Origin: Agathobaculum sp. Marseille-P7918
GTDB lineage: Bacteria; Bacillota; Clostridia; Oscillospirales; Butyricicoccaceae
DNA: 64,000 bases
NCBI RefSeq assembly: GCF_900625105.1
Contig: NZ_UYYD01000009.1
Location: forward strand, 1 to 64,000
Direction: 5' to 3'
Below the pieces are notes generated by a model. It searched no databases. It was not told the origin of the DNA and was given only the letters and a program-made list of their open reading frames with translations. The position numbers were made by a program, and so were the translations under genes. This document shows, piece after piece, positions 4,226 to 59,415 of this stretch; the stretch's first letter is position 1; every line of letters begins with the position of its first letter.

Positions 4226-4240
4226 GATTGTCTCCATGCA

Positions 4241-37915: not shown

Positions 37916-39469
37916 TCATGCCGTCCTGCCTTTTCTTTGCCGTTCCACCGTCTGATTGTCGCTCGGCAGGTTGACTTCTCCGATAAAGTTCCAGACCAGT
38001 TCGATCTTCTGCCTGCGGTGGCCGCTGGACTTGTCCGGTGCATGGACGATTATCTTCTTTACAAACTCATTGACGATGGTGGGTGTCAGTTCCCGGATAC
38101 CCACATACTTCCGCACAATAGCTGCAAAGCTCGCAAAATCGGCTTGATCCTGCTCGAAGATTTCTACCGCTTCCCGCCATACCTTGACCTGCTCCGTCAG
38201 TTCTTTTTGCTCCGCTTCATAGTCGGCGGAGAGTTTCAAGAACCGTTCATGGCTGATTGCCCCGTTGATGTCATCCTCATAGATGCGCTTGAAAATCCGG
38301 TCAAGTTCAGCAATGCGCTTTTCCGCATGGGCGATTTCACGCCTGCGCTTCTTGGCGTCTTTCTCCGCTTCTTGAAAACGCTGCTTTCTCGCGGCTTCCT
38401 CAAATGCCATGGCATCGTCAAAGAACAATGCCGTCACATCGAAAATCCGCTGCAAAACGAACAGTTTCAGTGTTTCTTCCCGGATAAAGTGCATGGTACA
38501 ATCACCCGTGTTGCTCTTATACCGGGAACACCGATAGCAGTCTTGTTGCGGTGTCATGTTTTTGCCTGTGGCGAAATGCAGTTTGCTGCCACAGTCGGCG
38601 CAGTACAGCAGGCCAGAAAACAGCCCTTGCCGTTCGGCTTGCTTGGCCGGGCGGCGCTTGTTCTCCCGTAACTCCTGTACCCGCTCAAAGACTTGTTCGT
38701 CGATAATGGCGGGCTGGGTATTGGGAAAAATCCGCTGGTTCTCTGGGGCGTTATGCAGCCGTTTTTTCAGCTTGTGGGACTTGGAATAGGTCTTGAAGTT
38801 TACCGTGCAACCGGTGTACTCTGGCCGCTCCAAAATTCCCGCAACAGACTTGGGACTCCACTTGTAAGGCTTCTCCGGCAGCGGCTTTCCGTCCCGCTGG
38901 GCGTAGTGGGCCTTGACAGTCAGGACGTGTTGGGCAGTCAGCAGCTTTGCGATTTGCATGGGGCCTTTCCCCGCAATGCACAGGTCAAAAATCCGTTTGA
39001 CAATCTCGGCGGCTTCCTCGTCCACAATCCATTTCTTTTTATCCGCCGGGTCTTTCTGATACCCATAGGGTGGATTGGTGCAGAGGTGTTCCCCGGCGTT
39101 TCCTTTTGCCCGCATAACGGCCCGGATTTTCTTGCTGGTATCGCGGGCGTAGAAGTCGTTGAACAGATTGCGAAACGGGGTGAAATCATTGTCCCCTTTG
39201 TCGCTGTCCACGCCGTCATTGATGGCGATATACCGAATATCACGCTCAGCAAAAAAGCTCTCGGTATAATAGCCCACTTTCAGATAGTCCCGACCCATGC
39301 GGGACATATCCTTGACAATGACGGTTCTGACCTTTCCCGCCTCGGCCAGCCGGATCATCTCATTCCAGCCCGGACGGTCAAATGTTACCCCGGACACACC
39401 ATCGTCAATGAAGAAAGTTGGATTAGGGAAACTATTGTCGGTTGCGTACTTCAAAAGGATTTTCTTTTG
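37916..39469 (-). pseudogene. Large serine recombinase, C-terminal part (gene interrupted)
   Basis: About 517 codons encode the recombinase from residue 34 on. DDGVSGVTFDRPGW, DMSRMGRDYLKVG and the recombinase domain (WIVDEEAAEIVKRIF) are followed by the zinc ribbon CADCGSKLHFATG...CYRCSRY, a coiled coil and DUF4368-like end. The catalytic serine part is absent here: reading upstream past 39469, the next sequence is foreign and a stop TGA follows. The missing N-terminus is found intact at 59314-59415. Joining CAA at 59316-59314 to AAG at 39466-39464 gives a continuous frame of about 550 residues, the normal size. Confidence 0.9.
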
Positions 39470-39601
39470 AGATGGAATTTGTCAAGGGGCTTTTCTGCAA
39501 AACACAATGTTTCTGAAAATAGCGTTCAAAATATATGCAGAGCCGTTAGTCCGCAGAGGATGCGAATTATCGGCTCAATGGTTTTCTTTTATTTGTAATC
39601 A

Positions 39602-39964
39602 TTACTTTTCCAATTCCAGATATTCTTGTCCCATGAAGAAGATTTTCAATTCGTTTTGATCTACTTCTATCTCAAATTCTACACTACTATTTCCCTGTGT
39701 AACACAGATTATATCCGAGTAAGAAAAACTATAATATGCGTCACCGCAGGATAGACCCGAATCGGGCATATCTTTACTCACAGCAAGTTCCCCGTTTTCT
39801 TGAAAGGTAAATATCTCCTCAGCATTTGCATCCTTCCATGTGCCAATAATATCTTTTTCGTTCTGAATGCGATTTACTTTACCAACACATACAATGGCAA
39901 GTATAACTGCACCAACAGTCAAAGCAATGCCTGCAACTCTCTTTACCAGTTTCTTTTTACGCAA
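39602..39964 (-). CDS. Small membrane-anchored protein of ABC operon
   Basis: A 120-residue protein. A basic start and one hydrophobic segment (VAGIALTVGAVILAIVCVG) precede an extracellular domain rich in beta strands: IIGTWKDANAEEIFTFQENG, then YYSFSYSDIICVTQG. The IIGTWKD-type opening resembles lipocalin-like domains of unknown function. It is the last gene of the operon with the FtsX-type permease and may assist export or act in immunity; this is inference. Confidence 0.6.
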   Translation of the reverse strand: MRKKKLVKRVAGIALTVGAVILAIVCVGKVNRIQNEKDIIGTWKDANAEEIFTFQENGELAVSKDMPDSGLSCGDAYYSFSYSDIICVTQGNSSVEFEIEVDQNELKIFFMGQEYLELEK

Positions 39965-40006
39965 TTTCTATTACCTCTGTTTCAGTTGCTTTGTTAGATT
40001 GAATGA

Positions 40007-42511
40007 TTACATATTGCTCAATTTCAGTTCCTCTACAATTTCCACCTTTGATACGCTTCTAACAGCAAACAGCATAGCGATACATACCATAGCGCCGACA
40101 GCCATAACTGCAAGAGCATAAATACCGCCGTTCATATAAAAAGCAAATGGTGTCATACCCGACGATATGAAGTAGTAGATAGCACAATGAATCAAAAAGC
40201 TCACAGGCAACGCAAGAACCAATGCTTTTACGCCGTACAAAACAGCTTCGAGCAATAGCGTACATTTTAATCCTTTGGCAGTCATACCAACAGAACGCAG
40301 AACAGCAAATTCGCTTCTTCTCAAATGAATCGTATTCGAGATAGTGTTACAAACATTCAAGCTGATAATAACCGTCATCAGGATCGAGAACAGGCAGATT
40401 ACCAGTTTTGCAATCGTATATACCTGTCTGGAATTATTCGTTGCGGCTGCAATGTCCACAGTTTGCGGAAATCCTCTGTCAGCCAGACATTCCATTGCTT
40501 CTTTATGCTGTGCTGTCTGTATTCTCATTTCCACATAGGCGTTATCATCTATCAGCAAGTTAAAATAACTTAAAGGCACGATGAGGACAGCTCGATCTCT
40601 CACAAACATGGATTGGATATTTGCATTTTCTTCTGAAACGATTTCTTCCACGATAATCGGCAAGGCATCCTCGGATGCCCCCAGCGGAATGATTTCTGTT
40701 CCCGGTTCAATAAGAAACGGTGAGCCTGCAATTACCCGATTTTGTGCCGAATTATAGTATCCCATAGTCTGATTGAGCAAAATTCCATGATTGAAATTTG
40801 TCACATCCAGACTGAATCCATTTTCATCGCAAAAAGAGACAAAATGTTCTTCGTCCAATCCTACGACATATACCTCTGCTTTCGTACCATTGATAAAATA
40901 TCCTTGCATATCAGGATTGATTTGTTCCTGCGAAAATTCAGCGGTCATATATCGCTGAAAAGAATAGGAAACATCCGCAGTGATATTTTCATCCGATAAT
41001 GCCCCGATTGCGACAGGAATATCTTTGTATTGAATCATCGAAATCACATCAGTATAACAGGAACCGTCCTCCTTCATATCCAAGGATGTCTGATAAAGCA
41101 TAAAATCAGAGAAACTATATAAGGAAAGGGCAATTACCACCGACAAGAAAATAGAGCCGGTAATCGCTCGGAAGCGTTTTGGATTACGCTTAATATTTTT
41201 TGCTGCTAACGAACCATAAATGCCAAAAACCAAAGAAACGATTTTTCCGTCACGGAATTTCTTTCTTGATACCGCATTGTTAGACTGGCGGATCGCTTCA
41301 ATAACTGTAATTTTAGCTGCTTGCTTCACAGGCTTTCTACTTCCGAAGTACAAAGAAGCAATGCCGGATAATCCGCTGACGAGCAGGATCAATCCGTTTA
41401 CCTTCAAGGACAGTTCTACGATGCCAAAAGTGAATGTTTCTCCAAAAGCTGCCCTGACCACACTTAATAACAGAGCAGATAGCAGGATACCAACAACCAA
41501 TCCAAAGGGTATGCTCACCACTCCCAAAAGGAAGGCTTCTAAATATACGCTAAGGCGTTTTTGCCCTTTTGTGGCTCCAATACTGGATAGCATTCCCATC
41601 TGCTTAATTCGTTCCTGTAAGGAAATGGAGAGGGCGTTGCTGATCATTGAAGCAGATGCAGCCATCAAAAGACAAACGACCATGACCACCAAAGCAATCA
41701 GTTTTGCAGCTCCTTTACCCCCGGTAATTCCATGATAGACTAACAATTCCGAATGAAACTTTGCTACATGACTGTCTACTGCCGCAGCCACTTCTTCGGC
41801 TTCTGTATAGATCGAATTGGATAAATTCTTTGCCTTGACATACGCAGCAAAATCGGATGCCGTTTTGTCAACACCTGCAAAGGCATTATAGTTTGCTGCG
41901 ATTTTTGAGTCATTCACATCTGACAGAATACCAACAACTACATACGCTTTCTCTTTTGTTGGAACGAAGCTTTCTTCTTCGCCCCTATAATTTGTCAGCC
42001 CGGAAAGCTGGGCATTATATTCATCCCAAATTCTTGAACCAAGAGTTAAAGAAATCGTATCTCCAATCTCTGTATTCATGTTGTTTTTCTTCAAAAAAGA
42101 TTCTGAAATAACAATCTCATTTTCATCTTGCGGGAAACGCCCTGCAAGCAAATACTGATTTAACGAAAATCTTTGGGTAAAGTTCTCGTCAATCTCGCCA
42201 ACGGAGAGCATTGTACTGTTGGATTTCTCCCCGTAAAAACTGTTTCCGGCAAAGCGGAGAAGCGAAACTTCGCCTACATTGTTTTGACTATATAGCTCTT
42301 GAACCTGCTCCCAAGTCAAATCCTCCATGTAGTAGTCATAATCGCCACCATACACTTTTTCTTTCTCTTTCAAAAAATCAACCAACGACCATCCCCCACA
42401 GAGAATAGCGGTTATCATACTGATTGACAAAAGAATGGTTAAAAGTGTGAGTAGGGTACGCTTTTTATTCGACAACAGATTCCTGAGTGTAAGCATGAAA
42501 ATCATATTCAT
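40007..42511 (-). CDS. FtsX-type ABC transporter permease
   Basis: An 834-residue permease. It has an N-terminal membrane helix (TLLTILLSISMITAILCGG), a large extracellular region (about residues 45-270), three helices, and a second half repeating the helix/extracellular/three-helix pattern, with the FtsX signature in each part (IKQMGMLSSIGATKGQKRLSVYLEAFLLG and LRRSEFAVLRSVGMTAKGLKCTLLLEA). Such two-module permeases typically work with MacB/LolD-type ATPases in lipoprotein or antimicrobial-peptide handling. It overlaps the ATPase gene by one base. Base composition is clearly AT-richer than the host core, a sign of transfer. Confidence 0.88.
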   Translation of the reverse strand: MNMIFMLTLRNLLSNKKRTLLTLLTILLSISMITAILCGGWSLVDFLKEKEKVYGGDYDYYMEDLTWEQVQELYSQNNVGEVSLLRFAGNSFYGEKSNSTMLSVGEIDENFTQRFSLNQYLLAGRFPQDENEIVISESFLKKNNMNTEIGDTISLTLGSRIWDEYNAQLSGLTNYRGEEESFVPTKEKAYVVVGILSDVNDSKIAANYNAFAGVDKTASDFAAYVKAKNLSNSIYTEAEEVAAAVDSHVAKFHSELLVYHGITGGKGAAKLIALVVMVVCLLMAASASMISNALSISLQERIKQMGMLSSIGATKGQKRLSVYLEAFLLGVVSIPFGLVVGILLSALLLSVVRAAFGETFTFGIVELSLKVNGLILLVSGLSGIASLYFGSRKPVKQAAKITVIEAIRQSNNAVSRKKFRDGKIVSLVFGIYGSLAAKNIKRNPKRFRAITGSIFLSVVIALSLYSFSDFMLYQTSLDMKEDGSCYTDVISMIQYKDIPVAIGALSDENITADVSYSFQRYMTAEFSQEQINPDMQGYFINGTKAEVYVVGLDEEHFVSFCDENGFSLDVTNFNHGILLNQTMGYYNSAQNRVIAGSPFLIEPGTEIIPLGASEDALPIIVEEIVSEENANIQSMFVRDRAVLIVPLSYFNLLIDDNAYVEMRIQTAQHKEAMECLADRGFPQTVDIAAATNNSRQVYTIAKLVICLFSILMTVIISLNVCNTISNTIHLRRSEFAVLRSVGMTAKGLKCTLLLEAVLYGVKALVLALPVSFLIHCAIYYFISSGMTPFAFYMNGGIYALAVMAVGAMVCIAMLFAVRSVSKVEIVEELKLSNM

Positions 42512-43191
42512 CAGCGTATCACCTCATCCCTCACAAGTCTGCCATCCTGAATTTCCAGAATACGGTCTGCCTGCATTGCGATTTCACGGTCATGGGTAAT
42601 CAGGATCATTGTCTGGCGATAGACTTCATTGGATTCACGCAGAAGTTTCATAATATCCCTTGTGTTCTCCGTGTCCAGATTTCCCGTTGGCTCATCCGCA
42701 AGGATAATCGCAGGTGCGTTAATCAACGCTCGTCCGATTGCCACTCTTTGTTGTTGACCGCCGGATAACTGACTTGGCAGGTGCTTTCTACGCTTTACCA
42801 GTTTGAGTGTGGATAGCAGTTCTTTCAAACGCTCCTGATTGATTTTACGCCCATCCAATCGAATCGGCAGCGTGATATTTTCCTCGACAGTCAAAACCGG
42901 GATCAGATTATAAAACTGATAGACAAGCCCAACCTGCCTTCTTCTGAATACAGCCAATTCATCTTCATTTTGCTCATAAACATCCTGTCCATCCACAAAT
43001 ACTTTTCCCGAAGTCGGTCTGTCAACACCACCTAAAATGTGCAACAGGGTAGACTTGCCAGACCCAGATGCTCCAATGATTGCAACAAACTCTCCTTTAT
43101 CGACGGAAAAAGAAACATCTGACAAAGCATGGACAGGAGCATTGTCCATTTCATAGGTTTTGCAGATATTCTCTACTCTTAATATCTCCAT
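42511..43191 (-). CDS. ABC transporter ATPase (MacB/LolD type)
   Basis: A 226-residue ATPase with all motifs: Walker A GASGSGKSTLL near 42, Q-loop (QFYNLIPVLTVEEN), signature LSGGQQQRVAIGRAL near 143, Walker B ILADEPTGNLD and switch His in LITHDREIA. The ATG at 43191 has GGAGG upstream; a longer frame begins at 43218. It powers the FtsX-type permease. Confidence 0.95.
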   Translation of the reverse strand: MEILRVENICKTYEMDNAPVHALSDVSFSVDKGEFVAIIGASGSGKSTLLHILGGVDRPTSGKVFVDGQDVYEQNEDELAVFRRRQVGLVYQFYNLIPVLTVEENITLPIRLDGRKINQERLKELLSTLKLVKRRKHLPSQLSGGQQQRVAIGRALINAPAIILADEPTGNLDTENTRDIMKLLRESNEVYRQTMILITHDREIAMQADRILEIQDGRLVRDEVIR

Positions 43192-43291
43192 AAAAAGTTC
43201 CTCCATATATTTTTGCAATTCAGTATAGCAAAGCCAAGTGACTGCTTCATTACTTTTTCATTACAAAAATGTCACTTAAAAAGGGGCTGCA

Positions 43292-44299
43292 TTAAGCAGT
43301 CCCCCGATAAAAGCAGATTTCAAATTTTGCACCGCCTGACTCCCGATTTTTCGCTTGGATGACACCACCCTGATTGACAATGATCGTCTTTGCCAGAGCC
43401 AACCCCAAACCGGCATTACCGATTGTAGAGCCACTTCCTTGATAAAATCGGTCAAATAAATGGGGGATGTCTTTTTCCTGAAAACCTGTTCCGCTATCCT
43501 CTATAATGATCTGTGTCAAAAGAGGTCTTTCTATTGCCTTGATTTCGATAGTGCTGCCCTCTGGTGAATGTTCGATACAGTTTTTGATTACATTCCCCAA
43601 GGCTTCAGCAGTCCAATCAGTATCAAGAGATAGTTTTAATTCTGCCGGAATCACTTGCGTGATTGTCTGCATTTTTAATTCTGCCGCAATCTCCAGAGGA
43701 CGAATTGCTTTTTCTACCACATCTTTTAAGTATACCGCCTGTGGCTTTAGAGTAATCGTTCCTGCATCCAGCTTGGATATTTTCAGAAGTGTGGCTATCA
43801 GCCACTCCATTCTTGATAAGAGCATAGTCTGTTCGCGGATCAGCTCATACCTTTCTTCGTCAGTCAGTTCCTCATTACACAGAGAAGCATTTAAGATATT
43901 CAGCGATGTCAAAGGTGTTTTTAATTGATGTGAAATATCGGCTAAAGCATTTGCCAAATTACCTTTCTCCATTTTCAGAGCTTCTGCCTGTTCAATAAGC
44001 CGTCTTGTCATCTTGGATATTTCATCATGTAAAACAGATAACTCACCTTCTTGAAACTGCCCAAAAGAAATTTTTTCATCTCCATGTAACAGCCTATCAA
44101 TATGCAAACTAAAATCAGCAATTTTCTTGTATCTCTGATATGTGAAAAAGAGGGAAACTGCACTGGATGAAATGATAGCCGACAGAACAATCCACACAGC
44201 TTTGCTATCAACGATAATGCCAATGCCGCCCCAAAATAGAATAAGAATACTGCTGACAACAATTTGCCTTTTAACTTCTTTATTTCTGATAAAGTCCAT
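43292..44299 (-). CDS. Histidine kinase with short intramembrane-type sensor
   Basis: A 335-residue kinase. Two helices (VSSILILFWGGIGIIV and VWIVLSAIISSSAVSLFF) are separated by only a few residues, so there is hardly any extracellular sensor, as in kinases that sense peptides through a partner ABC transporter. HisKA has the phospho-acceptor in ADISHQLKTPLTSL. The ATP-binding domain has N-box NVIKNCIEHSP, and G boxes EDSGTGFQ and GNAGLGLAL. The ATG at 44299 has AAGGTGG upstream. It pairs with the response regulator just upstream in the operon. Confidence 0.9.
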   Translation of the reverse strand: MDFIRNKEVKRQIVVSSILILFWGGIGIIVDSKAVWIVLSAIISSSAVSLFFTYQRYKKIADFSLHIDRLLHGDEKISFGQFQEGELSVLHDEISKMTRRLIEQAEALKMEKGNLANALADISHQLKTPLTSLNILNASLCNEELTDEERYELIREQTMLLSRMEWLIATLLKISKLDAGTITLKPQAVYLKDVVEKAIRPLEIAAELKMQTITQVIPAELKLSLDTDWTAEALGNVIKNCIEHSPEGSTIEIKAIERPLLTQIIIEDSGTGFQEKDIPHLFDRFYQGSGSTIGNAGLGLALAKTIIVNQGGVIQAKNRESGGAKFEICFYRGTA

Positions 44300-44300
44300 A

Positions 44301-44969
44301 TCAACCCACCTTATAGCCAAGCCCACGAACGGTAATTATGATTTCCGGCTCCTGCGGATTGGTTTCAATTTTGTCACGTAGCCTTTTCATATAGACAGTC
44401 AATGTATTATCATTGATAAACTCCCCAGTAGTGTCCCATAAAAGCTCCAACAATCTTCTGCGAGAAAGGACAATACCTTTGTTACGCAAAAAGACTAACA
44501 GCAACTTATATTCCATAGCAGACAACAAAATCTCTTTCCCATTCTTTGATACGGTTGCTTGATTTGTGTCCACAACTAAGTCGAGGTAACTGATAATGTT
44601 TTGTGTGTTCTTAGTTCTCCTTAATACGCTGTTGATCCTTGAAAGCAGTTCTCTTGGTCTGAACGGTTTGCTGATATAATCGTCAGCCCCCATATCTAAC
44701 CCAGCCACAACACTATATTCATCATCAGAAGCCGTTAAGAAAATAACTGGCATAGTTCCTCTTTCTTTAATTGCAGAACAAACAGAAAAACCATTTCCGT
44801 TTGATAATTGAATGTCCACCAAGGCTATATCGTATTGGTCGCTATCCAATTTTTCTATTGCTTCTTTTTGACCGGGAGCATTTTCGATTTTGAACCCTTC
44901 ATTTCCTAAATAGTCTGATAATGAGGATACGATACTTTGGTCATCCTCCACTAATAACAATTTACTCAT
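44301..44969 (-). CDS. OmpR-family response regulator
   Basis: A 222-residue regulator. The receiver domain has LVEDDQSI, the phospho-acceptor Asp in IALVDIQLSNGNGF and the conserved Lys in DYISKPFRPREL. The C-terminal winged helix shows LSAMEYKLLLVFLRNKGIVLSR and ITVRGLGYKV. It likely controls the transporter operon. It overlaps the small HTH gene by four bases and is followed by the kinase. Confidence 0.94.
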   Translation of the reverse strand: MSKLLLVEDDQSIVSSLSDYLGNEGFKIENAPGQKEAIEKLDSDQYDIALVDIQLSNGNGFSVCSAIKERGTMPVIFLTASDDEYSVVAGLDMGADDYISKPFRPRELLSRINSVLRRTKNTQNIISYLDLVVDTNQATVSKNGKEILLSAMEYKLLLVFLRNKGIVLSRRRLLELLWDTTGEFINDNTLTVYMKRLRDKIETNPQEPEIIITVRGLGYKVG

Positions 44970-45178
44970 CGTGTGTTCTCCTTGTTGTCAGCTATAAATT
45001 CATTTTTATTTTGTTTATATCTTCCATCAGCCGGCTTTTGGGCATCTTGGGGAATTAGCCATGCACGAGGTAGCCGAACAATTCCATCAATGCGATTCTC
45101 CTCACACAGCTTTTGAACACGACGCACCGATATTCCCCAAAGTTTAGCCGCATCCTGTACTGTCATGTATTCAAACAT
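44966..45178 (-). CDS. Small helix-turn-helix DNA-binding protein
   Basis: A 70-residue protein with an excisionase-like HTH: YMTVQDAAKLWGISVRRVQKLCEENRIDGIVRLPRAWLIP. The basic C-terminal tail is disordered. It leads the two-component/ABC operon and is translationally coupled to the response regulator. It could bind the promoter in front of it. TCCG-GAGG-type Shine-Dalgarno (GGAGG) precedes the start. Confidence 0.7.
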   Translation of the reverse strand: MFEYMTVQDAAKLWGISVRRVQKLCEENRIDGIVRLPRAWLIPQDAQKPADGRYKQNKNEFIADNKENTR

Positions 45179-45208
45179 AGTTTACCTCCGCATCAAATAG
45201 TTATATAT

Positions 45209-45237
45209 ATTATATACGCACAAACGAACAATATCAA
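45209..45237 (-). promoter_or_regulatory. Promoter of two-component/ABC operon
   Basis: On the minus strand, TTGATA (45237-45232) and TATAAT (45214-45209) are spaced by 17 bases, about 30 bases before the HTH gene. Confidence 0.78.
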
Positions 45238-45579
45238 TGGGCTGTTTGTAAACACTTAAACACTAACTGTGTACGAATTAACTCGGCGCTAACAATTTCC
45301 GTCATCCTGTTTCGGATATTATTTATTTTTCCACCCAACCCATTCTGTCCGGGCAGCTACCTTTAATTTTTTGTTACGCCTCCTCTGCTGCGAGCAACTC
45401 TACCAAAACCGAAGGACCATATTTTCAGACTGCCGAGCGACCTCGACTGGTGCCAAACGATTTTGCTGAGGCGATAGAAAATAGAATTGCAATGTACTAT
45501 AATAAAGGTGTGAAATTTTCCCTCGCTTCTGTAAGATTGTCCGCCAGATCCATAGTACATAGGTGAGGAGGTGGATACC
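45238..45579 (+). other. Intergenic region with possible gene remnant and sigma-gene promoter
   Basis: No complete gene is seen. A plus-strand frame at about 45390-45564 encodes a protein-like stretch (PYFQTAERPRLVPNDFAEAI) that has no start and looks like the degraded end of a gene. TATAAT at 45500-45505 probably serves the sigma gene, though its -35 box is weak. Confidence 0.4.
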
Positions 45580-46805: not shown

Positions 46806-46826
46806 TAGAATTCGATTAAATATTGC

Positions 46827-46863: not shown

Positions 46864-46938
46864 TACGCTTGACGTATAGGGATTATCTCCATCCCCCTAT
46901 GTCACAGACTTCACCTGAAGTTTCAACCTCCAGCACTT

Positions 46939-50730: not shown

Positions 50731-50776
50731 AGTTTGTCCTTTCTGCCGCTGTGCGGCCTTGAAAATAGATTGTTTG

Positions 50777-50993
50777 TGTACGGCTCTGTACGGTAAACGC
50801 CAGTGCTGTACGCCGCTGTACACCGATTGGTCTTTGGATTTTGCGTTTGCTTTGTCAAATCGCTGTTTATACCGCAAGAAAATGCGGTAATCGCAGCACA
50901 TTGCACATAAAGAACGCTGATTTTGCGGTAAAATAGCTTTTTGAAAACGGAGTTGAGAACTGCCGTACATCGTGTACGGCATGTACGGCAGTT
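50777..50993. promoter_or_regulatory. Centromere-like repeat region (parC) upstream of parM
   Basis: TGTACGG-type repeats start at 50777, 50787, 50807 and 50817, i.e. in steps of 10 or 20 bases, one helical turn. A second cluster has GCCGTACA (50962), TGTACGGC (50973) and TGTACGGC (50982) inside a perfect inverted repeat AACTGCCGTACAT / ATGTACGGCAGTT (50958-50993). Position directly before parM matches the parC site of type II partition systems. Confidence 0.72.
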
Positions 50994-51013
50994 TTGAAGT
51001 CCAGTTCTCATAT

Positions 51014-52339
51014 TTAATAAGGAAGCAAGTTCATCGCCTCCACTCCGATAAATCCACGCACCCGCTTTCCGGCTGCGTACACATTGTTGGTAGCCTCCAC
51101 ATTATAAAGCCGTTCATTCTGGGCCAGCTCTGAGCTGATACGATTTGCTGACATAGGCTTTTGTGCGTTGTCCTCGCACCAGCGGAGATAGGCTTCATAG
51201 ATAGCCTTGGAGCTGGCTTCGCTGTCGGCCTTAAAGCGGATATAGCCCTCGGATTGCAAAAACTCGATCACATTGTTGCTGCTGCGCTTTACTGTCTCCA
51301 TATTTTCTTTGGCTCTATCGCTGATGGTGAACTGATACTCGTTCCCAATCAACCGCCGCAGACCCTCCAGACACCACAAAAAGATGCCCTCACGCTCCTG
51401 TGTCAGCTTATCCACCAGAAATGGATCATCGGCTCGTCCTGCTGGCCTGTCCTTGGTGGTCAACACGATCTGCCTGCGGAAGAAGCCGTCTGACTTGTCG
51501 TGCAAAGCGGTTAAAGCGCCGTTGCCGAAGCAAAGAAAGCGGACATAAAGCTGGCTCTGATAGCTTTGAACACCCTTGCGTTCCATATCCATCTTGCACT
51601 CTGAGGTCACGATGGATTTGATATAGTTGGTCTTGGGCAGGGCACTCATATCCATATCGTCATCCACCATCAGCAGCTTGTTTTCCAGGTCTGCACGGCT
51701 GAAACGGTTGTTCTCTACCTTCTGGATGCTGGTGGTATTCATGTTATCTCCCAGCATGGAGCGCATTACAAGTCCGATTCGACTCTTTCCTTCGCCGCCC
51801 TTACCAATCATCAGGAGCATTTTCTGCCCCTTTGTGGTAGGCAATAGGCAGTAGCCCATATACTCCTGCAAGGTGGGAATGTCCTCCGGGACAAGCAGCT
51901 CGGATAAAAATTGCAGCCAGCGCACAGGCGGCGGTGCATCGGGGAGATAGGCCACACTCAGACGGTTGTTGCAATAGCTTTTGTCCTCGGTGAAACGCCC
52001 ATCCAGAAAGAGTGTCCCGTTTGCCACATGGATACGGTCAGTCTCGATGGGCAGGGGCGGCGAATAGGCTTGCAGCTTGATACTGGCCAGCAGATTTGCC
52101 ACCACCTTGGAAAGCCCGGAGGTCAGACAGCCGGAGATCTCCTCCAGAATGAGATTGCCGATTTGCGCCTCGTCCTCAATCAGTCCATCCACTGTGAACA
52201 GCCTTCCTCTGACACATTTCATGGGATGCTTTTTTAAGAACTGCTGACAAAACAGCACTTCGTTGATGCGTTTTCCATCATACCAATCGGGAATGCTTTC
52301 TTCAGGCGGCATAACCATTGGGGTATTCAATTCGTCCAT
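51014..52339 (-). CDS. P4-type primase/SF3 helicase (D5-like)
   Basis: A 441-residue protein. An N-terminal D5-type region precedes a superfamily 3 helicase domain with Walker A LMIGKGGEGKSRIGLV near residue 180, Walker B LLMVDDDMDM near 226 and motif C LYVRFLCFGNGALTAL. The C-terminus has a winged-helix domain. There is no priming active site, so the neighbouring CHC2 protein probably supplies primase activity. It overlaps that gene by 38 bases. Confidence 0.87.
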   Translation of the reverse strand: MDELNTPMVMPPEESIPDWYDGKRINEVLFCQQFLKKHPMKCVRGRLFTVDGLIEDEAQIGNLILEEISGCLTSGLSKVVANLLASIKLQAYSPPLPIETDRIHVANGTLFLDGRFTEDKSYCNNRLSVAYLPDAPPPVRWLQFLSELLVPEDIPTLQEYMGYCLLPTTKGQKMLLMIGKGGEGKSRIGLVMRSMLGDNMNTTSIQKVENNRFSRADLENKLLMVDDDMDMSALPKTNYIKSIVTSECKMDMERKGVQSYQSQLYVRFLCFGNGALTALHDKSDGFFRRQIVLTTKDRPAGRADDPFLVDKLTQEREGIFLWCLEGLRRLIGNEYQFTISDRAKENMETVKRSSNNVIEFLQSEGYIRFKADSEASSKAIYEAYLRWCEDNAQKPMSANRISSELAQNERLYNVEATNNVYAAGKRVRGFIGVEAMNLLPY

Positions 52340-52937
52340 AGGTTTCCTCCTTTCGCAGTTGTTCCAGACGCTCCTTTAGTGCTATGATTTCACCATCCGT
52401 CATCCAGTCCTGTACAATTTCCCGACGCTCATAGCTGTCACCAAAGGTGAGAATGTTCAGTTCATATTCAATCTGACTGAGCTTGTGGCAGGCTTCCACG
52501 AATAAATCATGGACTGGCTCATCCGGCGTTTGCGGCGCATAGTATGCTTTCCATTCCTCCAAGCAACGGTAATAGTCCGATAAAACAGAAAAGCACAGAC
52601 GCTCGTTTTCTTTGAGCTTCTGTGCTTCTGTTCGGATACGCTTTGCATTGAGTGCCGCTGCGCTGGGCGGCTTGTCCGGGTCAAGATGAAAGTCTATCAC
52701 CAGCTTCATGGCTGCGTCGTAGGGCTTGAGATCAAACAACCTTGCAGTGAAGTCAATGACATCTCCATGCTCTCCGCAGGTAAAGCAATAATAATGGTCG
52801 TTTGCCACATACAAGCTGGGGTGTCTGTCATTGTGAAAGGGGCAGAGCGCCTTGCCGTGCCGGTTGACCTCAAGGCCATACGCCTGTGCCGCTTCCCGCA
52901 GGCTGACGTTGTTTTTTACGGTTTCGAATAAATTCAT
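52302..52937 (-). CDS. CHC2 zinc-finger DNA primase-like protein
   Basis: A 211-residue protein with the CHC2 zinc finger of DnaG primases at residues 31-55 (CPFHNDRHPSLYVANDHYYCFTCGEHGD). The remaining part is helical and lacks the TOPRIM domain of a full primase. The ATG at 52937 has AAAGGAGG upstream. With the SF3 helicase it forms a two-gene replication module, suggesting that the excised element can replicate. Confidence 0.85.
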   Translation of the reverse strand: MNLFETVKNNVSLREAAQAYGLEVNRHGKALCPFHNDRHPSLYVANDHYYCFTCGEHGDVIDFTARLFDLKPYDAAMKLVIDFHLDPDKPPSAAALNAKRIRTEAQKLKENERLCFSVLSDYYRCLEEWKAYYAPQTPDEPVHDLFVEACHKLSQIEYELNILTFGDSYERREIVQDWMTDGEIIALKERLEQLRKEETYGRIEYPNGYAA

Positions 52938-52954
52938 GTGTCCTCCTTTGCGTA

Positions 52955-52992
52955 GAAAAAGCGGCTTGCCCTGATATAAGGCAAACCGCTTC
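52955..52992 (-). terminator. Terminator after serine recombinase gene
   Basis: On the minus strand, AAGCGGTTTGCC pairs with GGCAAGCCGCTT, followed by TTTC. It lies between the recombinase stop and the CHC2 gene. Confidence 0.75.
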
Positions 52993-53020
52993 CTCAAAAT
53001 TTATTGTTTTATTGGAAATA

Positions 53021-55069
53021 TTAAGCCGGAGAGGTAACTGTCTCCGCTGCCAGTTTTTCCTTCCTGTTCGCTGCATTGCGAACCCGCTGGCCTTTGATAT
53101 GCCCCTCATATCGGCACTCATCACTGCAATACTTGACATTGCTTCTTGTGGTGGAAAAGGTCTTACCGCAGTTTTCACAAGTGCAGTCACGCCGCCTGTT
53201 TTCTGCCGCTTCCTGCCGGTAGAACTTCGCCCGGCAATTCGGTCCGCAGAACATAGCAGCCGAGCTTTTGGATTCAAATCCCTGACCGCAGCACTTACAG
53301 GTTAGCTGAAAAGGCTGCCCAACGGTGTGCTTCCCGGCCTTAATCAACTGATAGCGCTCCCGGCTTTTGATGCGATGCTGGCGTAGCTGCTCCTGCCGCT
53401 TGATTTCCTCTGCTGTCAGCTCCGGGGCAGGAAGTTCAAACTTTCCGATGAATTTCAGGAAGATTTCTACCTCCTGCGTTCTGTCCCCGTCGATGCGCTC
53501 CGGGGCATGAACGATGATTTTATCAATAAATTCATTGATCATCGGTGTAGTCAGCTCGGAGAAATCGGTGTACTTTTCTGCCAAAGCAAGGAACTGCTCT
53601 ACACGGGCAGTATCTTCCTCATAGCTCGTCAGGCTTTCCTCCGTTTCTGCAATCTGTGCGGAAAGGTTTTTCTGTTCGACTTCGTACTCAGCAAGCAGGC
53701 TGTCAAAGCGTTCCTCAGAAATTCGGCCTACGGCAAAGGATTCATAGAGCTTTTTAATGATCGTATCCAGCTCACTGTGGCGCTTACGGTCTTTGTTCAG
53801 CTTTCGTTTGGCATCTTTGGCCGCCTCCACCTGCCTGACCTGTGAAGCGGCTCGTATCTTCTCGGTGAATTTTTCCCGATCTGCTATGGCAAGCTGGCTG
53901 ACAGTGCGGATTGTCTCTAAAATAAGGATACGCAGCGACTTAGTGGTAATATAGTGCCCGCAGCAGTCCTTTCCATGCTTCTGATGTGCCAGTGTATAAG
54001 AGGAGCAGTCAAAGAAATCCGACGGATACGGAGTGCCTTCTGTACCGCCTCTGGAACGATGATTATACATCTTTGCGCCGCAGTCCGCACAGTATAAAAG
54101 CCCGGTCAGGGGATTGGCTTCGCCTATGGTATCAATACGCCGTGGCGTTTTCCGCAGTTGCTGAGCAAGCTCCCATGTTTCCGGCTCGATAATGGCCTCA
54201 TGGGTGTTCTCGAAGATCAGCCAGTCCTCCTTGGGATTAGGAATAGAGGTCTTGTCCTTATATGACAGCTTGTGGGAACGGAAATTGACCGTATGCCCCA
54301 TATACTCAGGCTTAGACAATATCTGCCCCACAATATAGCCGCTCCAGTTATAAGGATATGCGAACTCGGTCTTACTTTTCCAAACGCCAATGCCTTTCCT
54401 TGCAAAATAGACCGCCGGAGCTTCTACCTTATCTTCAAAAAGGATTCTGGCAATGTCATAGGGGCCTTTTCCCTCGATGGTCAGACGGAAGATGCGCCGC
54501 ACAACGGCGGCGGCCTCCTCGTCAATCAACCAATGGTGCTTGTCGTTCGGGTCTTTCTTATAGCCGTAGATGGCACTGTTGGTGGTAGGCTTGCCTGATT
54601 CCCCCTTCACACGGATAGCGGTTTTCTGCTTGCGGCTCAGATCACGCAAGTACCACTCGTTCATGATGTTGAGGAACGGAGCAAATTCATTGCTGTTCTG
54701 GTCGTTGCTGTCCACGCTGTTGGCGATGGCAATAAAATGAATGCCATGCTGACGGAACATAACCTCCGTGTAAAAGCCGGTCTGCAAGTAGTCACGTCCG
54801 ATTCGGGACATATCCTTTACGATCACACGAGCCACCTTGCCAGCTTCAATGTCTGCCACCAGCTTTTTCCATGCCGGTCTTTCAAATGTGCCGCCTGAGA
54901 ATCCGTCGTCCGTGTAATGGGCAAAGTTTGTGTACCCCTGCTGTGCGCAATAGCCCTCCAAGTATTTCTTTTGATTCACAATGGAGTTGCTATCCCCAAT
55001 CTGGTCATCGTCACGGGAAAGTCGTTCGTATAAGGCGGTGATCTTGTCCTCAGTCTGAATGATGCTCAT
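53021..55069 (-). CDS. Large serine recombinase of the inner element
   Basis: A 682-residue recombinase. The resolvase domain has the nucleophile in ALYERLSRDDD near residue 18, with GFSGGTFERPAW, KDMSRIGRDYLQTG following. The recombinase domain (LIDEEAAAVVRRIF), zinc ribbon (CADCGAKMYNHRS), coiled coil and DUF4368 follow. The last 120 residues add two further Cys clusters (CKCCGQGFESKSSAAMFCGPNC and CENCGKTFSTTRSNVKYCSDEC), an unusual C-terminal extension. It most probably integrates and excises the 19.85-kb element at GA cores. Confidence 0.93.
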   Translation of the reverse strand: MSIIQTEDKITALYERLSRDDDQIGDSNSIVNQKKYLEGYCAQQGYTNFAHYTDDGFSGGTFERPAWKKLVADIEAGKVARVIVKDMSRIGRDYLQTGFYTEVMFRQHGIHFIAIANSVDSNDQNSNEFAPFLNIMNEWYLRDLSRKQKTAIRVKGESGKPTTNSAIYGYKKDPNDKHHWLIDEEAAAVVRRIFRLTIEGKGPYDIARILFEDKVEAPAVYFARKGIGVWKSKTEFAYPYNWSGYIVGQILSKPEYMGHTVNFRSHKLSYKDKTSIPNPKEDWLIFENTHEAIIEPETWELAQQLRKTPRRIDTIGEANPLTGLLYCADCGAKMYNHRSRGGTEGTPYPSDFFDCSSYTLAHQKHGKDCCGHYITTKSLRILILETIRTVSQLAIADREKFTEKIRAASQVRQVEAAKDAKRKLNKDRKRHSELDTIIKKLYESFAVGRISEERFDSLLAEYEVEQKNLSAQIAETEESLTSYEEDTARVEQFLALAEKYTDFSELTTPMINEFIDKIIVHAPERIDGDRTQEVEIFLKFIGKFELPAPELTAEEIKRQEQLRQHRIKSRERYQLIKAGKHTVGQPFQLTCKCCGQGFESKSSAAMFCGPNCRAKFYRQEAAENRRRDCTCENCGKTFSTTRSNVKYCSDECRYEGHIKGQRVRNAANRKEKLAAETVTSPA

Positions 55070-55275
55070 GATGCGCTCCTTTCAGACTGACGGCTCATTT
55101 GTGGTACACCAATTATATCACAAGTTCCGTCGTTTGTAACTACTTCGTTGCGTATCATTCGTAAAATTTTATCCTCCATTGTCTCTTTCCCACTTTCACT
55201 GAAAGCGACTCTCACCTTGTAGGTGGTGCCGCCAATACGTCTTATCATATACTGTGCCTGTTTGTTTTTATCCAT
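55066..55275 (-). CDS. tnpW: TnpW-like transposon protein
   Basis: A 69-residue protein with MIRRIGGTTYKVRVAFSESGKETMEDKILRMIRNE, the pattern of TnpW proteins that precede large serine recombinase genes. Its stop overlaps the recombinase start by four bases. The ATG at 55275 has AAGGAGG upstream. The function of TnpW is not established. Confidence 0.82.
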   Translation of the reverse strand: MDKNKQAQYMIRRIGGTTYKVRVAFSESGKETMEDKILRMIRNEVVTNDGTCDIIGVPQMSRQSERSAS

Positions 55276-55366
55276 AGCGTTCCTCCTTGAAAAATTCATG
55301 TTCGTTTGATATACTAATGGTGGTTCCGACTGATGTAAGTCGGTGGCATCTTGTGTCATGTTTCAT
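55268..55366 (-). CDS. Possible 32-residue leader peptide before tnpW
   Basis: A short frame with an ATG at 55366 ends eight bases inside tnpW, so that its translation would pass the tnpW ribosome binding site. AAAGGAGG lies upstream but at a long distance. This could be a coupling leader; it may equally be chance. Confidence 0.3.
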   Translation of the reverse strand: MKHDTRCHRLTSVGTTISISNEHEFFKEERYG

Positions 55367-55525
55367 AAAGCTACCGCAACTTGCGTCCTCCTTTCTCTTG
55401 ATACGGGTTGAAAAAGTAACCTAAATAACCGCTTATCAGATTACCCTCTCACTAATAGGAGAAATCCGGGGTGTAAATCGGAACTGTTTTTGAAAGAAAT
55501 TCAAAAAATTTTCGGAGGTGAGGTC

Positions 55526-56404
55526 ATGACAGATGAAAATAGAACATTTCTCCTGTTCCCGGATGACGGTGATGACCTAACCGAATGGGATGAAGCCTCC
55601 GATCTGACGATACAAAACGAGCAGTTAGAGGAAATCCTCTCCGAAGAACGAGCCTTAGAGCTGGAAAGAGAGCTGGAGCAGGACGAAAACCCAAGGGACT
55701 ACACCGTAGAACTGGAGGACGAAGAGGAAGAAGCTGCTCCTGTCAGCGAAAAACGCTTAAAGCGCCAGATACGGGCAGAGGCGTTGGCACGGCTGGAGGA
55801 TGCTGCAAGAACAGAGGACGACTTTCGATACGTTGTCAGCGAATGGGACAGGTTGGATCGGAATCGGGAACGACGGGAGCGTGACCATGAAAATCTCCGG
55901 GGAGATGTTCCGTTAGAATACATGGCAGTTCCCAATCCGAAGATGATTCCGCTGTATTTGAATCTGCCACGATACCGCCAGCTTGCCAGCGGCAATTTTC
56001 TGGATATCATTTTTTCTTGCCCCTATGAACTGCATGAGTTGGTTGCAAGCTCATTTATTTCTGAGCTGATACGCAGCCTTACCATTGATCAGAAGGAAGT
56101 GCTGTATTACCTGTCCATCCGGCAGTACAGCACCATACAGGTGGGTATGATACGGGGACAGACAGACCGAAACATTAGAAAGCTCCGAAAGAATATCCAC
56201 AAGAAGCTGCAAAGAGCGGTTTATGATTACCTTTTGGAAAAACAGAACGACTGTGGAAGCCTAACGCTGCGGGAACGGCAGTTCTTAGAGGAATATGGGC
56301 TTTTGCTGAAAGCCTATGGCAAGGACGCCGTTATCCTCCGGGAGAACAAATCAAAGCCGAGGAAAAAGAAAGCTGCCCTTGGCAGCAGCAAGGACAGCGA
56401 ATGA
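55526..56404 (+). CDS. Sigma-like regulator with C-terminal HTH
   Basis: A 292-residue protein. The first 100 residues are strongly acidic and coiled (LEEILSEERALELERELEQ). The C-terminal half contains a region resembling sigma region 4 (LTIDQKEVLYYLSIRQYSTIQVGMIRGQTDRNIRKLRKNIHKKLQ). A basic tail (SKPRKKKAALG) closes it. The ATG at 55526 has GGAGGTGAGG upstream. It is divergent from the recombinase operon and probably controls element genes. Confidence 0.7.
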   Translation: MTDENRTFLLFPDDGDDLTEWDEASDLTIQNEQLEEILSEERALELERELEQDENPRDYTVELEDEEEEAAPVSEKRLKRQIRAEALARLEDAARTEDDFRYVVSEWDRLDRNRERRERDHENLRGDVPLEYMAVPNPKMIPLYLNLPRYRQLASGNFLDIIFSCPYELHELVASSFISELIRSLTIDQKEVLYYLSIRQYSTIQVGMIRGQTDRNIRKLRKNIHKKLQRAVYDYLLEKQNDCGSLTLRERQFLEEYGLLLKAYGKDAVILRENKSKPRKKKAALGSSKDSE

Positions 56405-56451
56405 TCTGATTGAATTTGATAAGCAGATGACCGAAAGGAAGGATTTGCGTT

Positions 56452-57378
56452 ATGAATACATTTTTTGAGCAATCCCGTTCCCATTGGGTGCGGTATGAAC
56501 GCTATGAAATCAAAACAGGCAAGGACGGGAAGAAATACATCACCCCGGCAAAGGATGCCAGGCCGGATGTCTATAACCCACTCAAGGAAGCCCCGGACAT
56601 TGTGCTGGATGCTCTGAATGTGGGGATGCTGATGATGAACGGCAAGAAAAGCTCTGAGCCAGAGGTAGAAAAGGCAATCTTGGAATTTATTACCCACTAT
56701 GGGCTGCTGGGCCTGATGACGGCCCTGCCCACCACGCCGTCCTTTATGGATTATGAGGCGGTATATCTGCCAAAGAACCATTTTATCAAGGAAGAAACGA
56801 TGGAGACGGAGAAGTATCTGTCCCTGTTTTACCCCTTTGATAAGCTGGATGTGGTCAAGAACGGTGTGGAATCCAGTTGGAATGTGTCCAGCGACCGGGC
56901 AATGATTGCACTGACCATGACCTTTATGGACGAGCCGATGGCAAAGACCATGAGCTTCCAGCGGGCGTATGCAGAGCCTTACGATTGGGTGGCACAGCAA
57001 CTCAAGGATTGGGCATTTAATATGCTGACCTCTTTCTTCTATTATAATGACTATGATTCCATGGAGGAAGAAAGCCGGAATATGCTGCGTAAGTCTATGG
57101 CTGCATTTGGCGGCATTGCACCCACCTATCATATAGAGCTGTTGGATAGGCCAACGATCTATTGGGATTTCCATTCCCTGCTGTTGGGGATTCAGATGAT
57201 GTTCAGCTTCATGCTGGTGGACAGCACAAAGCCGTTGCGGATGTGCAAGCAGTGTCAGAAAGTGTTCCTGAGTAACCGGGCTAACTCCGCTTTTTGCAGT
57301 GCAAGGTGTAAAAATCAGTATAATGTTTATAAGAGCCGGGGAAAGAATAAATCAGAGGATGGTGATAATAATGCCTGA
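56452..57378 (+). CDS. DUF6076-type protein with C-terminal zinc ribbon
   Basis: A 308-residue protein. The body (including IMEDYEAVYLPKN-like segments such as SFMDYEAVYLPKNHFI) matches no enzyme I can name; the C-terminal CKQCQKVFLSNRANSAFCSARC is a clear treble-clef/CGNR-like zinc motif. This arrangement is typical of DUF6076 proteins on gut mobile elements. AAAGGAAGG precedes its start, and it overlaps the AlbA_2 gene by eight bases, so the two are coupled. Confidence 0.65.
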   Translation: MNTFFEQSRSHWVRYERYEIKTGKDGKKYITPAKDARPDVYNPLKEAPDIVLDALNVGMLMMNGKKSSEPEVEKAILEFITHYGLLGLMTALPTTPSFMDYEAVYLPKNHFIKEETMETEKYLSLFYPFDKLDVVKNGVESSWNVSSDRAMIALTMTFMDEPMAKTMSFQRAYAEPYDWVAQQLKDWAFNMLTSFFYYNDYDSMEEESRNMLRKSMAAFGGIAPTYHIELLDRPTIYWDFHSLLLGIQMMFSFMLVDSTKPLRMCKQCQKVFLSNRANSAFCSARCKNQYNVYKSRGKNKSEDGDNNA

Positions 57379-58738
57379 AAATCAGAACATAGAATGGAAA
57401 GCTAAGTGGAAGGATGACTATCTGGAATGGATTTGCGGCTTCGCCAATGCACAGGGCGGCAAGATTTATATTGGCTGTGACGATGATGGAAAAGTTATCG
57501 GCCTGCCCAATATCCGCAAGCTGCTGGAGGATGTTCCAAACAAAATCCGAAATGCCATGAGCATCGTGGTGGATGTCAATCAGCTGGAGCGTGACGGGAA
57601 AGAATATCTGGAAATCGTTGTTCCACCATATCCCGTTGCCATAAACTGCAAAGGTGTCTATTATTATAGAAGCGGCAGCACCATGCAGACCCTTTCTGGC
57701 CCAGAACTGGAGAGCTTCATTCTACGCAAACGTGGTGCTTCGTGGGATAATATGCCCTTGCCGGGATTTACGTTGGATGATATTGATGATGAGTTGGTCA
57801 AGAGATTCAAGACCCTTGCCGCCAAGAAGGGCCGGATCGACCAAAGCGTTTTAGACGAGGACAAAGCGGATTTAATGGAAAAGCTGCGTCTGACCAATGC
57901 CGGGTATTATACCAACGCAGCGATGCTGCTGTTCTGCAAAGACCCTGACCGCTGGCAGCTGGGCGCATACACAAAAATCGGCTTTTTCGAGAATGATGCC
58001 GATCTCCGTTATCAGGATGAAATTCACGGCTCCTTGTTGGAACAGATTGACAAGATCATTGAAGTCATCCATCTGAAATATATGAAAGCGAAAATCACTT
58101 ACGAAGGGATGCAGCGCATTGAGCGTTATTTTGTTCCCGACGCTGCCCTGCGTGAAGCCCTTCTTAACGCTCTATGCCACAAGCAATATGAAAGCGGCGT
58201 TCCGATTCAGATCAGCGTGTATGAGGATAAGCTGTATATCGCTAACTGTGGTAGGCTTCCAGACAACTGGACGGCAGACAGCCTGATGTCCAAACACGCA
58301 TCCCGCCCTTACAACACGGCGATTGCGAATGTGTATTATTTGGCCGGCTTCATCGAGAGCTGGGGACGTGGTATTGAGAAAATCTGTCAGGCTTGCAAGG
58401 AAGATGGAAGCCCGCTTCCTGCGTACACCGTGCATCCCGGCGATATTATGATTCAGTTTACAGCGTCAGAGGATCGGGTTATTCGATCTGCCACCTACAA
58501 GGTGACAGAAAAGGTAACAGAAAAGGTAACAGAAAAGGTAACAGAAACCTTGGATGAAAAATCCATGCAAATTCTGGCCCTGATTTCCGAAGATCCTGCA
58601 TACACATCTACCACCATAGCAGATAAGCTATCTATCAGCAGAAAAACAGTTTCTCAGCGTCTGAAGGAGCTGAAGGAAAAAGGAATCATCGAGCGCATCG
58701 GGTCTGACCGAAAAGGCTACTGGAATATAAAGAGCTAA
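57371..58738 (+). CDS. AlbA_2/Schlafen-type ATP-binding regulator
   Basis: A 455-residue protein. Residues 5-125 form the AlbA_2 DNA-binding domain (IEWKAKWKDDYLEWICGFANAQGGKIYIGCDDDG). Residues about 245-370 resemble an HATPase_c_4 domain (PDAALREALLNALCHKQY and FIESWGRGIEKICQACKE). A winged helix follows (STTIADKLSISRKTVSQRLKELKEKG). A linker of four VTEK repeats, encoded by 12-bp direct repeats at 58499-58546, joins the last two domains. The ATG at 57371 is close to GGTGATAATA. Confidence 0.82.
   Translation: MPENQNIEWKAKWKDDYLEWICGFANAQGGKIYIGCDDDGKVIGLPNIRKLLEDVPNKIRNAMSIVVDVNQLERDGKEYLEIVVPPYPVAINCKGVYYYRSGSTMQTLSGPELESFILRKRGASWDNMPLPGFTLDDIDDELVKRFKTLAAKKGRIDQSVLDEDKADLMEKLRLTNAGYYTNAAMLLFCKDPDRWQLGAYTKIGFFENDADLRYQDEIHGSLLEQIDKIIEVIHLKYMKAKITYEGMQRIERYFVPDAALREALLNALCHKQYESGVPIQISVYEDKLYIANCGRLPDNWTADSLMSKHASRPYNTAIANVYYLAGFIESWGRGIEKICQACKEDGSPLPAYTVHPGDIMIQFTASEDRVIRSATYKVTEKVTEKVTEKVTETLDEKSMQILALISEDPAYTSTTIADKLSISRKTVSQRLKELKEKGIIERIGSDRKGYWNIKS
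58499..58546 (+). repeat. Four tandem 12-bp repeats encoding KVTE
   Basis: The unit AAGGTAACAGAA occurs four times (the first with GTG for GTA). Since 12 bp is a multiple of 3, changes in copy number would lengthen or shorten the linker without breaking the frame. Confidence 0.9.
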
Positions 58739-58798
58739 GTGATACAGAATTAGCCCCACACCAGCGTTCATTCATGCTGATGCGGGGCTAACATGTGT

Positions 58799-59170
58799 TT
58801 AGCAATATACAAGCTCCGTCAGAACAATTTCCTCTGCACGGTTATGAATGTTGTTCATGCGCCGTACCCATTCCATTTGATCGGTAGCTTTAAGTGCCTC
58901 GGTCACACCTTCCAGTCGTGCCATAGCTTCGCACATGATCTCCATACGCTGATTGCAGGATTTGTCTATCTCTGCAAGATGTTCATGCAGGGTGCAGCTT
59001 GTTAGGTAGTGTGCATAAAGGACGGGACGATGCTCTTTCAAGTAGCGGCGGCGCATACGGCCATACTTACCGATCTGATATTCCTCGGTCTCCGGCAGCG
59101 CAAGGTCGGGGATATAGTAATCGCCAACCTTCGTATATGTGCCGCCCATTTCTTCAAAAATAGACTTCAT
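58799..59170 (-). CDS. tnpV: TnpV-like transposon protein
   Basis: A 123-residue protein with the TnpV pattern: GGTYTKVGDYYIPDL, then YGRMRRRYLKEHRPVLYAHYLTSCTLHEHLAEID. It lies at the right end of the inner element, as tnpV does in Tn4451-like elements. The second ATG (59170) is preferred over 59176 because GGGAG is then at a normal distance. No function is established. Confidence 0.82.
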   Translation of the reverse strand: MKSIFEEMGGTYTKVGDYYIPDLALPETEEYQIGKYGRMRRRYLKEHRPVLYAHYLTSCTLHEHLAEIDKSCNQRMEIMCEAMARLEGVTEALKATDQMEWVRRMNNIHNRAEEIVLTELVYC

Positions 59171-59313
59171 TTTCATGCTCCCTTCGTGCTAAAATGTCAG
59201 CAGTTATGCGGATTTTTTTCCTTTCCCACAACTGCCAGACCAATTCACCACAAATGAGCCGCCAGTCATGTAATAGTATTAGGCGGTAGAAACCACCCTC
59301 TACATATTACATC

Positions 59314-59415
59314 TTGATTGGCTATGCTGTTGCTCTCGCCATCCAGCGCGTCCTCTTGGGACAGGCGGGCGTATAAAGCGGTAATGTTGTCGGGATAATT
59401 GGTGTTTGCTGTCAT
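59314..59415 (-). pseudogene. Serine recombinase, N-terminal 34 codons (gene interrupted)
   Basis: The ATG at 59415 has GGAGGAATGA upstream and encodes MTANTNYPDNITALYARLS, with the catalytic serine at residue 19 (LYARLS), continuing to SNSIANQ at residue 34. At 59314 the inner element begins; reading on would add 15 foreign codons and end at TGA 59268-59266. The frame joins exactly to the C-terminal part at 39466. Confidence 0.88.

Follow-up and report, generated by a model that had tools for sequence, protein, structure and literature searches.

The window, a stretch of 64,000 nucleotides from Agathobaculum sp. Marseille-P7918 (assembly GCF_900625105.1, contig NZ_UYYD01000009.1, positions 1 to 64,000 of the forward strand), contains a large serine recombinase gene of an outer mobile element that is interrupted by an inner, mobilizable element of the Tn4451/TnpX type. 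We hypothesize that the recombinase of the inner element uses a short dyad-like site with a CA core, which is encoded by a motif of other serine recombinases, and that it prefers the integrase genes of other mobile elements. This explanation as a whole, in which the insert is an active or recently active element with predicted TnpX activity, is given a probability of about 0.86. The recombinase codon is the commonest landing site of this element family, with a preference that is strong without being absolute. On these comparisons the insertion site is not incidental, a point missed by the original prediction, which was made from the letters of the window alone and proposed that the mobility of the outer element may depend on excision of the inner one. 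The preference for recombinase genes as landing sites is the stronger and better-supported result of the two.

The interrupted recombinase gene and copies of the inner element

The outer recombinase gene lies on the minus strand, comprises 550 codons and is interrupted after codon 34 by an insert of 19,847 bp. Its N-terminal piece (59314..59415, minus strand, 34 codons) begins with ATG at 59415, includes the RLS catalytic serine motif and ends with ...GESNSIANQ at 59314, after which the inner element encodes 15 further residues and a stop. The C-terminal piece (37916..39469, minus strand) opens with QKKILLKY at 39469 and stays open for the remaining 517 codons until a stop that ends at 37916; it encodes the rest of the Resolvase domain, the Recombinase domain, the Zn ribbon and DUF4368. 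Since both pieces include the Gln codon, the total for the gene is 550 codons. The left junction (39467..39470) and the right junction (59314..59317) share TTGA, with the core dinucleotide TG/CA at 39468-39469 and 59315-59316, and equivalent bases of the two junctions are 19,847 bp apart. The exact split into 34 and about 517 codons, the distance between the pieces and the TTGA at both junctions had all been predicted, and these coordinates are confirmed here.

The two pieces, each searched alone, were found side by side in three natural records. Plasmid pMM59_01 of Pusillibacter faecalis (L106) has an annotated coding sequence of 1,653 bp, in which the N piece matches at 5902-6002 with 93% and the C piece at 6001-7553 with 87% DNA identity. 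The faecal phage record MT835476 (L107) carries the N piece at 2911-3003 (93 of 102 bp matched) and the C piece at 3001-4552, and genome G123 (L010) carries them at 54-137 (84 of 102 bp matched) and 135-1686, respectively. The contiguous relative of about 550 residues that the original prediction proposed to look for in other genomes was therefore found three times.

A scan with the TnpX protein, using one genome per species, yielded 77 loci, many of which had no recognisable element end and were left unscored. Four of these loci carry the element of the window at 99.85-99.96% identity over 16.3 kb, and the leftmost 1,531 bp of the element match at 100% (rounded) in all four. The right end follows ...ESLSIRTQ in Faecalibacterium hattorii (L029), ...ESNSIVHQ in Hominifimenecus microfluidus (L030), ...ESLSIENQ in Faecalibacterium sp. 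I4-1-79 (L031, NZ_CP094467.1, titled a complete chromosome) and ...ESNSISNQ in Brotaphodocola catenula (L032), while the left ends adjoin recombinase C pieces that begin with QKAMLMEY, QKQMLEDY, QKAILLEY and QKRILETY. Each of the four copies thus interrupts a serine recombinase gene of its own, at the codon that is also split in the window, which makes five of five with the copy of the window itself. The target recombinases of three of the four copies were comparable to the outer recombinase of the window and share 34-47% protein identity with it. These copies at other sites also fix the ends of the inner element (39470..59314), whose period is 19,847 bp including a core of 2 bp. No further copy of the inner element was found in the viral contigs searched, where MT838923 (L238) lacked a right end.

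Landing sites, core and half-sites across the family

The right-end motif GANNTAATATGTA and the left-end motif GANNNNATTTGTCAAGG were first taken from ends within recombinase genes and describe the element side only. They identified further ends in the loci of the TnpX scan, in downstream stretches and by pattern searches of 394 and 391 genomes, in which 3 and 2 genomes matched, respectively, with the genome of the window in both. When each element is counted once, 31 elements have at least one scoreable end. An end lies exactly at the SI..N-Q|K codon (once Q|R) of a recombinase gene, in either orientation, in 19 of them: the window, L029, L030, L031, L032, L033, L036, L039, L040, L044, L045, L047, L048, L082, L104, L114, L115, the second copy of genome G400 (L128/L129) and G824:C248 (L130/L131). 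The element is reversed in five (L039, L044, L047, L048 and G824:C248), so that the C piece stands at its right end and the N piece at its left; these five have TG where the others have CA at the right end, which would follow if polarity is set by the core. In genome G400 (L114, L126, L128, L129, L230, L232) there are two related copies, whose ends lie in two distinct recombinase genes, along with a partial third tnpX. One more left end, from a related element, adjoins a recombinase C piece and was met by chance among 60 background regions (L221, G036:C73:90290-90480), with no tnpX or right end recognised across the next 18 kb. It represents a 20th end at the recombinase site but came from a recombinase query and was kept out of the 31.

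Some matches were not counted. For the left end, L069, L071-L075, L077, L078 (second hit) and L094 gave matches with one mismatch, all from other TnpX groups, and a match in L129 at 10701 was also set aside. Degenerate right-end matches in L056, L058, L068, L079, L080, L089, L093 and the second hit of L136 were taken as false. A TnpX tree of 42 rows was built by a quick method; its L079 row is frame-broken with a very long branch and is to be ignored. Within a clade of 27 rows (SH-like approximate likelihood ratio test, SH-aLRT, 100), rows with the recombinase site are scattered among rows with other sites, and the reversed insertions L047, L048 and L233 cluster together, as do L039 and L044. 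The pattern fits an old preference with occasional other landings.

The N side of L031 is AAC-CAA and its C side T-CAG; CA is preceded by C on the one and by T on the other, so only CA is common to both sides. In L036 the N side reads CAT. Read towards the core, the N half-sites have AT at -9 and -8 in 18 of 18 cases, and the C half-sites have A at -9 in 13 of 13 (AT in 10, AG in 2, AA in 1). For the 11 sites with both halves available, position -9 is the same in both halves in all 11, position -8 in 9 and position -12 in 7, and therefore the Ser-Ile-x-Asn-Gln-Lys-x-Ile/Met-Leu motif encodes a roughly symmetric site around CA. Away from the recombinase codon, all 8 right-end CA-side flanks likewise have AT at this place, where local AT frequencies of 0.06-0.107 give a product of 2.6e-9. 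This agreement counts beyond protein conservation because the recombinase motif does not force AT there.

According to the proposed explanation, the attachment site would consist of a CA core whose strongest positions are an A and a T nine and eight bases away on each side, often with an A at twelve. Such a site would happen to be encoded by the motif that is conserved among other large serine recombinases, and strand exchange at CA, presumably carried out by TnpX, would insert the element directly behind the Gln codon in the catalytic domain, so that the nucleophilic serine is parted from the rest of the protein. The targeted motif would belong to genes that are characteristic of mobile elements and of which a genome has many copies, and this would offer many safe and portable landing sites. 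The integrase of the carrier would stay disabled until the element leaves.

Several observations weigh against this explanation. Twelve of the 31 elements lie elsewhere (L034, L035, L038, L042, L050, L052, L053, L054, L057, L095, L116 and G827:C5), one of them, in L042, within a GH26 gene, and strict site specificity is thereby ruled out. Taken by itself, the AT of the half-sites within recombinase genes could mirror protein conservation, since all 55 background recombinases likewise show AT in the N half; this set comprises the 60 background regions minus L209 and L189 (too short), L198 (register off), L218 (TnpX-like) and L221 (interrupted). The left ends of L053 and L057, included in the 31, were scored separately from the main half-site counts: the left-end CA side of L053 reads TA without AT, and the TG side of the other sites has AT in only 2 of 7 cases (3 of 8 with L057). 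L032 has CAG on both sides, which is not predicted by a fixed element base. The two flanks come from different genes in L033 and G824:C248 (L130/L131), and the mismatched flanks of L033/L112 and L130/L131 suggest recombination between copies or assembly faults. The left end of L114 was not found within 20 kb. An exact uninterrupted peptide across the site was present in another fetched locus for 6 of the 13 recombinase insertions with both ends (window, L030, L032, L039, L045 and L048), but not for the other 7. Finally, a circular joint was found neither in seven genomes, for five of which the pattern, suited to window-type ends, was a fair test, nor in viral contigs; assemblies rarely show such joints.

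Two relatives with other positions are of separate interest. One (L038 5252-7180, and L120) lies close to the 3' end of a serine recombinase gene that looks complete (...KQKCGI|...); this is another kind of site within recombinase genes. The other (L052 5035-5860, with a TnpX of about 68%) lies inside a relaxase gene at an HNHFVVN motif, hinting that other conserved motifs of mobile elements are targets as well.

The tnpX genes themselves provided a lead on self-avoidance. All 27 examined (the clade and the near neighbours L056, L058 and L236) have Tyr (TAT/TAC) where the targets have Ile, Met, Leu or Phe, and this Tyr codon puts TA instead of A at -9 in the C half; Tyr occurs in 2 of 55 background recombinases. 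More distant TnpX-like rows carry Met, Leu or Ile at the position. The TnpX domain of PDB 2mhc, which we take to be that of Tn4451, has the same NQKKYLE, and this weakens the idea. Self-avoidance is kept as a lead only, because the 27 genes represent one or a few origins, Tyr is rare in the background anyway and 2mhc shares the motif. A more far-reaching version of the whole explanation, in which the clade evolved to recognise the DNA for the catalytic-domain motif, would make other mobile elements as a class its hosts: a hyperparasite that locks its carrier by separating the catalytic serine and frees it on excision, while its own recombinase gene lacks one half-site and escapes self-insertion. 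We regard this version as doubtful.

Consequences for the outer recombinase and alternative explanations

The N piece contains a Tyr-x-Arg-Leu-Ser (YxRLS) motif, and the stretch aligns with TnpX (2mhc) and with TP901-1 (3bvp). The serine of this motif is the nucleophile in the large serine recombinase family. It is parted from the rest of the protein, and therefore the large piece alone is expected to be inactive and the outer recombinase to be off. Thus, the inner element probably disables the outer integrase gene. Precise excision should restore that gene, since the CA core allows a scarless reaction in principle, and the carrier would then be immobilised at first and released later. Among the 10 insertions with a readable downstream piece, 7 have it open (517 codons in the window, 471 in L029, 607 in L030, at least 500 in L031, 506 in L039, 506 in L045 and 515 in L115). 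In the remaining three it is broken (87 codons in L044, 26 in L047 and 73 in L048), and excision there could therefore not restore the gene. In principle, therefore, part of the insertions can be reversed and part cannot. The predicted switching off of the outer integrase with restoration on excision is accordingly upheld in part: the exact split, the intact relatives, the catalytic serine on the N piece and the scarless core agree with it, while the missing circular joint and the three broken downstream pieces do not.

The consequence can be read in two ways. Regulated excision of the inner element could release the outer integrase as in active lysogeny, so that the mobility of the outer element depends on the inner one. 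The precise split, the separated serine, the core that permits scarless excision and the seven open downstream pieces would suit such a functional switch, of which the anatomy alone was found here. However, no excision product was seen, three downstream pieces have decayed, and the near-identity of the five copies may just mean that there was too little time for decay; we consider the switch possible but unlikely. Alternatively, recombinase genes may be only an abundant, dispensable and mobile haven, in which an insertion would in effect be permanent and the outer element either dead or mobilised in trans. The decayed pieces agree with this. The genome of the window also has 14 matches to the outer recombinase at E values up to 0.001, including itself and the inner tnpX, and targets are therefore plentiful. 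Excerpts of an earlier review describe Tn4451-type elements as otherwise of low specificity (PMC5704250). On the other hand, most readable downstream pieces are open, and near-identical copies at different sites in different genera imply recent movement. A permanent haven has, in our estimate, slightly better than even odds.

Two further explanations are both highly improbable. Nested elements may pile up, and one may have fallen by chance into an integrase gene; nested TnpX-type elements are indeed known, such as Tn6104-6106 in Tn6103 (PMC3158075, in part). Chance is contradicted by the sharing of the site, with the same codon used in 19 of 31 elements and in all five copies of this element. 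An assembly artefact could have joined unrelated contigs, as the genome of the window is a draft of 36 contigs and the flanks of L033 and L130/L131 are mismatched. However, both flanks of the window match one gene in the three natural intact relatives, and L031, titled a complete chromosome, has the same arrangement at another recombinase. Mis-assembly is unlikely because the same element ends adjoin recombinase pieces in four separately assembled genomes. As relatives from other gut bacteria frequently use the same codon of different integrase genes, the insertion resembles parasitism on mobile elements more than chance.

Gene content, known systems and significance

The predicted integrase of the inner element is a TnpX-like large serine recombinase of 682 aa (53021..55069, minus strand; Pfam domains, and PDB 2mhc TnpX at E 6.8e-45). 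Genes for a TnpW-like protein (55066..55359, PF14202), a TnpV-like protein (58799..59176, PF14198) and a MobA/MobL (MobQ) relaxase (46939..48636, PF03389, with NF041496 MobQ above cut-off) are on the same strand. TnpW is a Tn4451 gene. The minus strand also encodes an actin-like protein (ALP, 49801..50982, Pfam) and, by Pfam, a DUF5906 protein (51014-52339) followed by a CHC2 zinc-finger primase-like protein (52302-52997), together 51014..52997. Cargo genes on this strand (40007..44969) encode an FtsX/MacB-like permease, an ATP-binding cassette (ABC) ATPase, a sensor kinase and a response regulator, and no NCBIfam match over cut-off was obtained for the cargo proteins among the best 25 matches per protein. 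The plus strand encodes a sigma factor and a partner protein without a Pfam match (45571..46805) and a Schlafen/AlbA_2 plus HATPase_c_4 protein (57299..58738, Pfam). Two further proteins of the insert (56452-57378 and 55490-56404) have no Pfam match. The insert thus has a TnpX-like recombinase with DUF4368, tnpV and tnpW and a MobA/MobL-type gene, as in Tn4451/TnpX-type elements, and a 2-bp core shared by both ends (only CA in L031 and L036, with L032 as an exception). Its own integrase and relaxase make it an integrative and mobilizable element (IME), and no Pfam match to parts of a conjugation machinery was found among the 17 insert proteins in a scan of 20 proteins in all, which covered the larger open reading frames. 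The core dinucleotide of Tn4451 is GA. Unlike it, the inner element has a CA core, and therefore the insert is filed as a TnpX-type relative and not as Tn4451 itself.

Less of the outer element could be delimited. Homology to the three intact relatives ceases at nearly the same place in all of them, about 45 bp past the recombinase stop, and the end of the outer element is therefore placed approximately near 37,872 (37872..37916). Its other end was searched for and not found. GTGTCAA-like words recur in a cluster between this end and the upstream operon, at 37540-37810. To the right of the window (L134 5171-19832, contig positions 69171-83832) lie structural genes of a prophage, for terminase, portal, capsid and tail tape measure.

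The following comparisons draw on parts of the published sources. Like Tn4451/Tn4453 and Tn6104-Tn6106, the inner element has a TnpX-like recombinase, TnpV and a MobA/L relaxase. Tn6104-6106, nested in Tn6103, use a 2-bp target, and excision was described for Tn6104, which lies in a conjugative transposon and carries cargo of similar kinds to that found here (a two-component system, an ABC transporter and sigma factors; PMC3158075). Unlike the low-specificity relatives of Tn4451, the commonest target here is one codon of serine recombinase genes (PMC5704250). The same review places IMEs in conserved genes of integrative and conjugative elements (ICEs). In Streptococcus suis, IMEs with serine integrases occupy SNF2, PPI, traG and other ICE genes, and an erm(B) element lies within the serine integrase gene of an IME, where excision was undetected (PMC7168690). 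The streptococcal IMEs in SNF2, PPI/maff2 and traG resemble the present case in that a mobilizable element disrupts a conserved gene of a larger one (PMC7168690, PMC5704250). They target other conserved genes of particular ICE families, whereas the present element targets the integrase gene family as such, in differing sequences and just past the catalytic serine.

As with the sigK skin elements and SpyCI in mutL, the split gene would be restorable by precise excision; unlike there, the gene that is split here is part of another mobile element, and its restoration is judged from anatomy. A survey of large serine recombinases described a multi-targeting DUF4368 clade (Durrant et al., 2022; PMC10083194), and the inner recombinase belongs to the same broad, TndX-like clade with several target genes. 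In the available parts of that survey a recombinase-gene target is not named, and its Pfam enrichment of target genes omitted the multi-targeting clade. Among the matches listed in a literature search of open-licence papers, none was recognised as describing a preference of such elements for recombinase genes. Insertion of one element into a conserved gene of another was already known, and the preference for recombinase genes appears to be the new part.

The finding suggests that integrase genes, which are among the most conserved parts of many mobile elements, may themselves be an attachment site, so that one element could ride on and disable many unrelated ones. If this is true, it would bear on which islands are mobile in gut Clostridia, account for some of the broken recombinase genes seen in genome annotations and provide a recombinase whose multi-copy target motif has been mapped. 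Moreover, the conflict between nested elements would become directly testable in culturable commensals.

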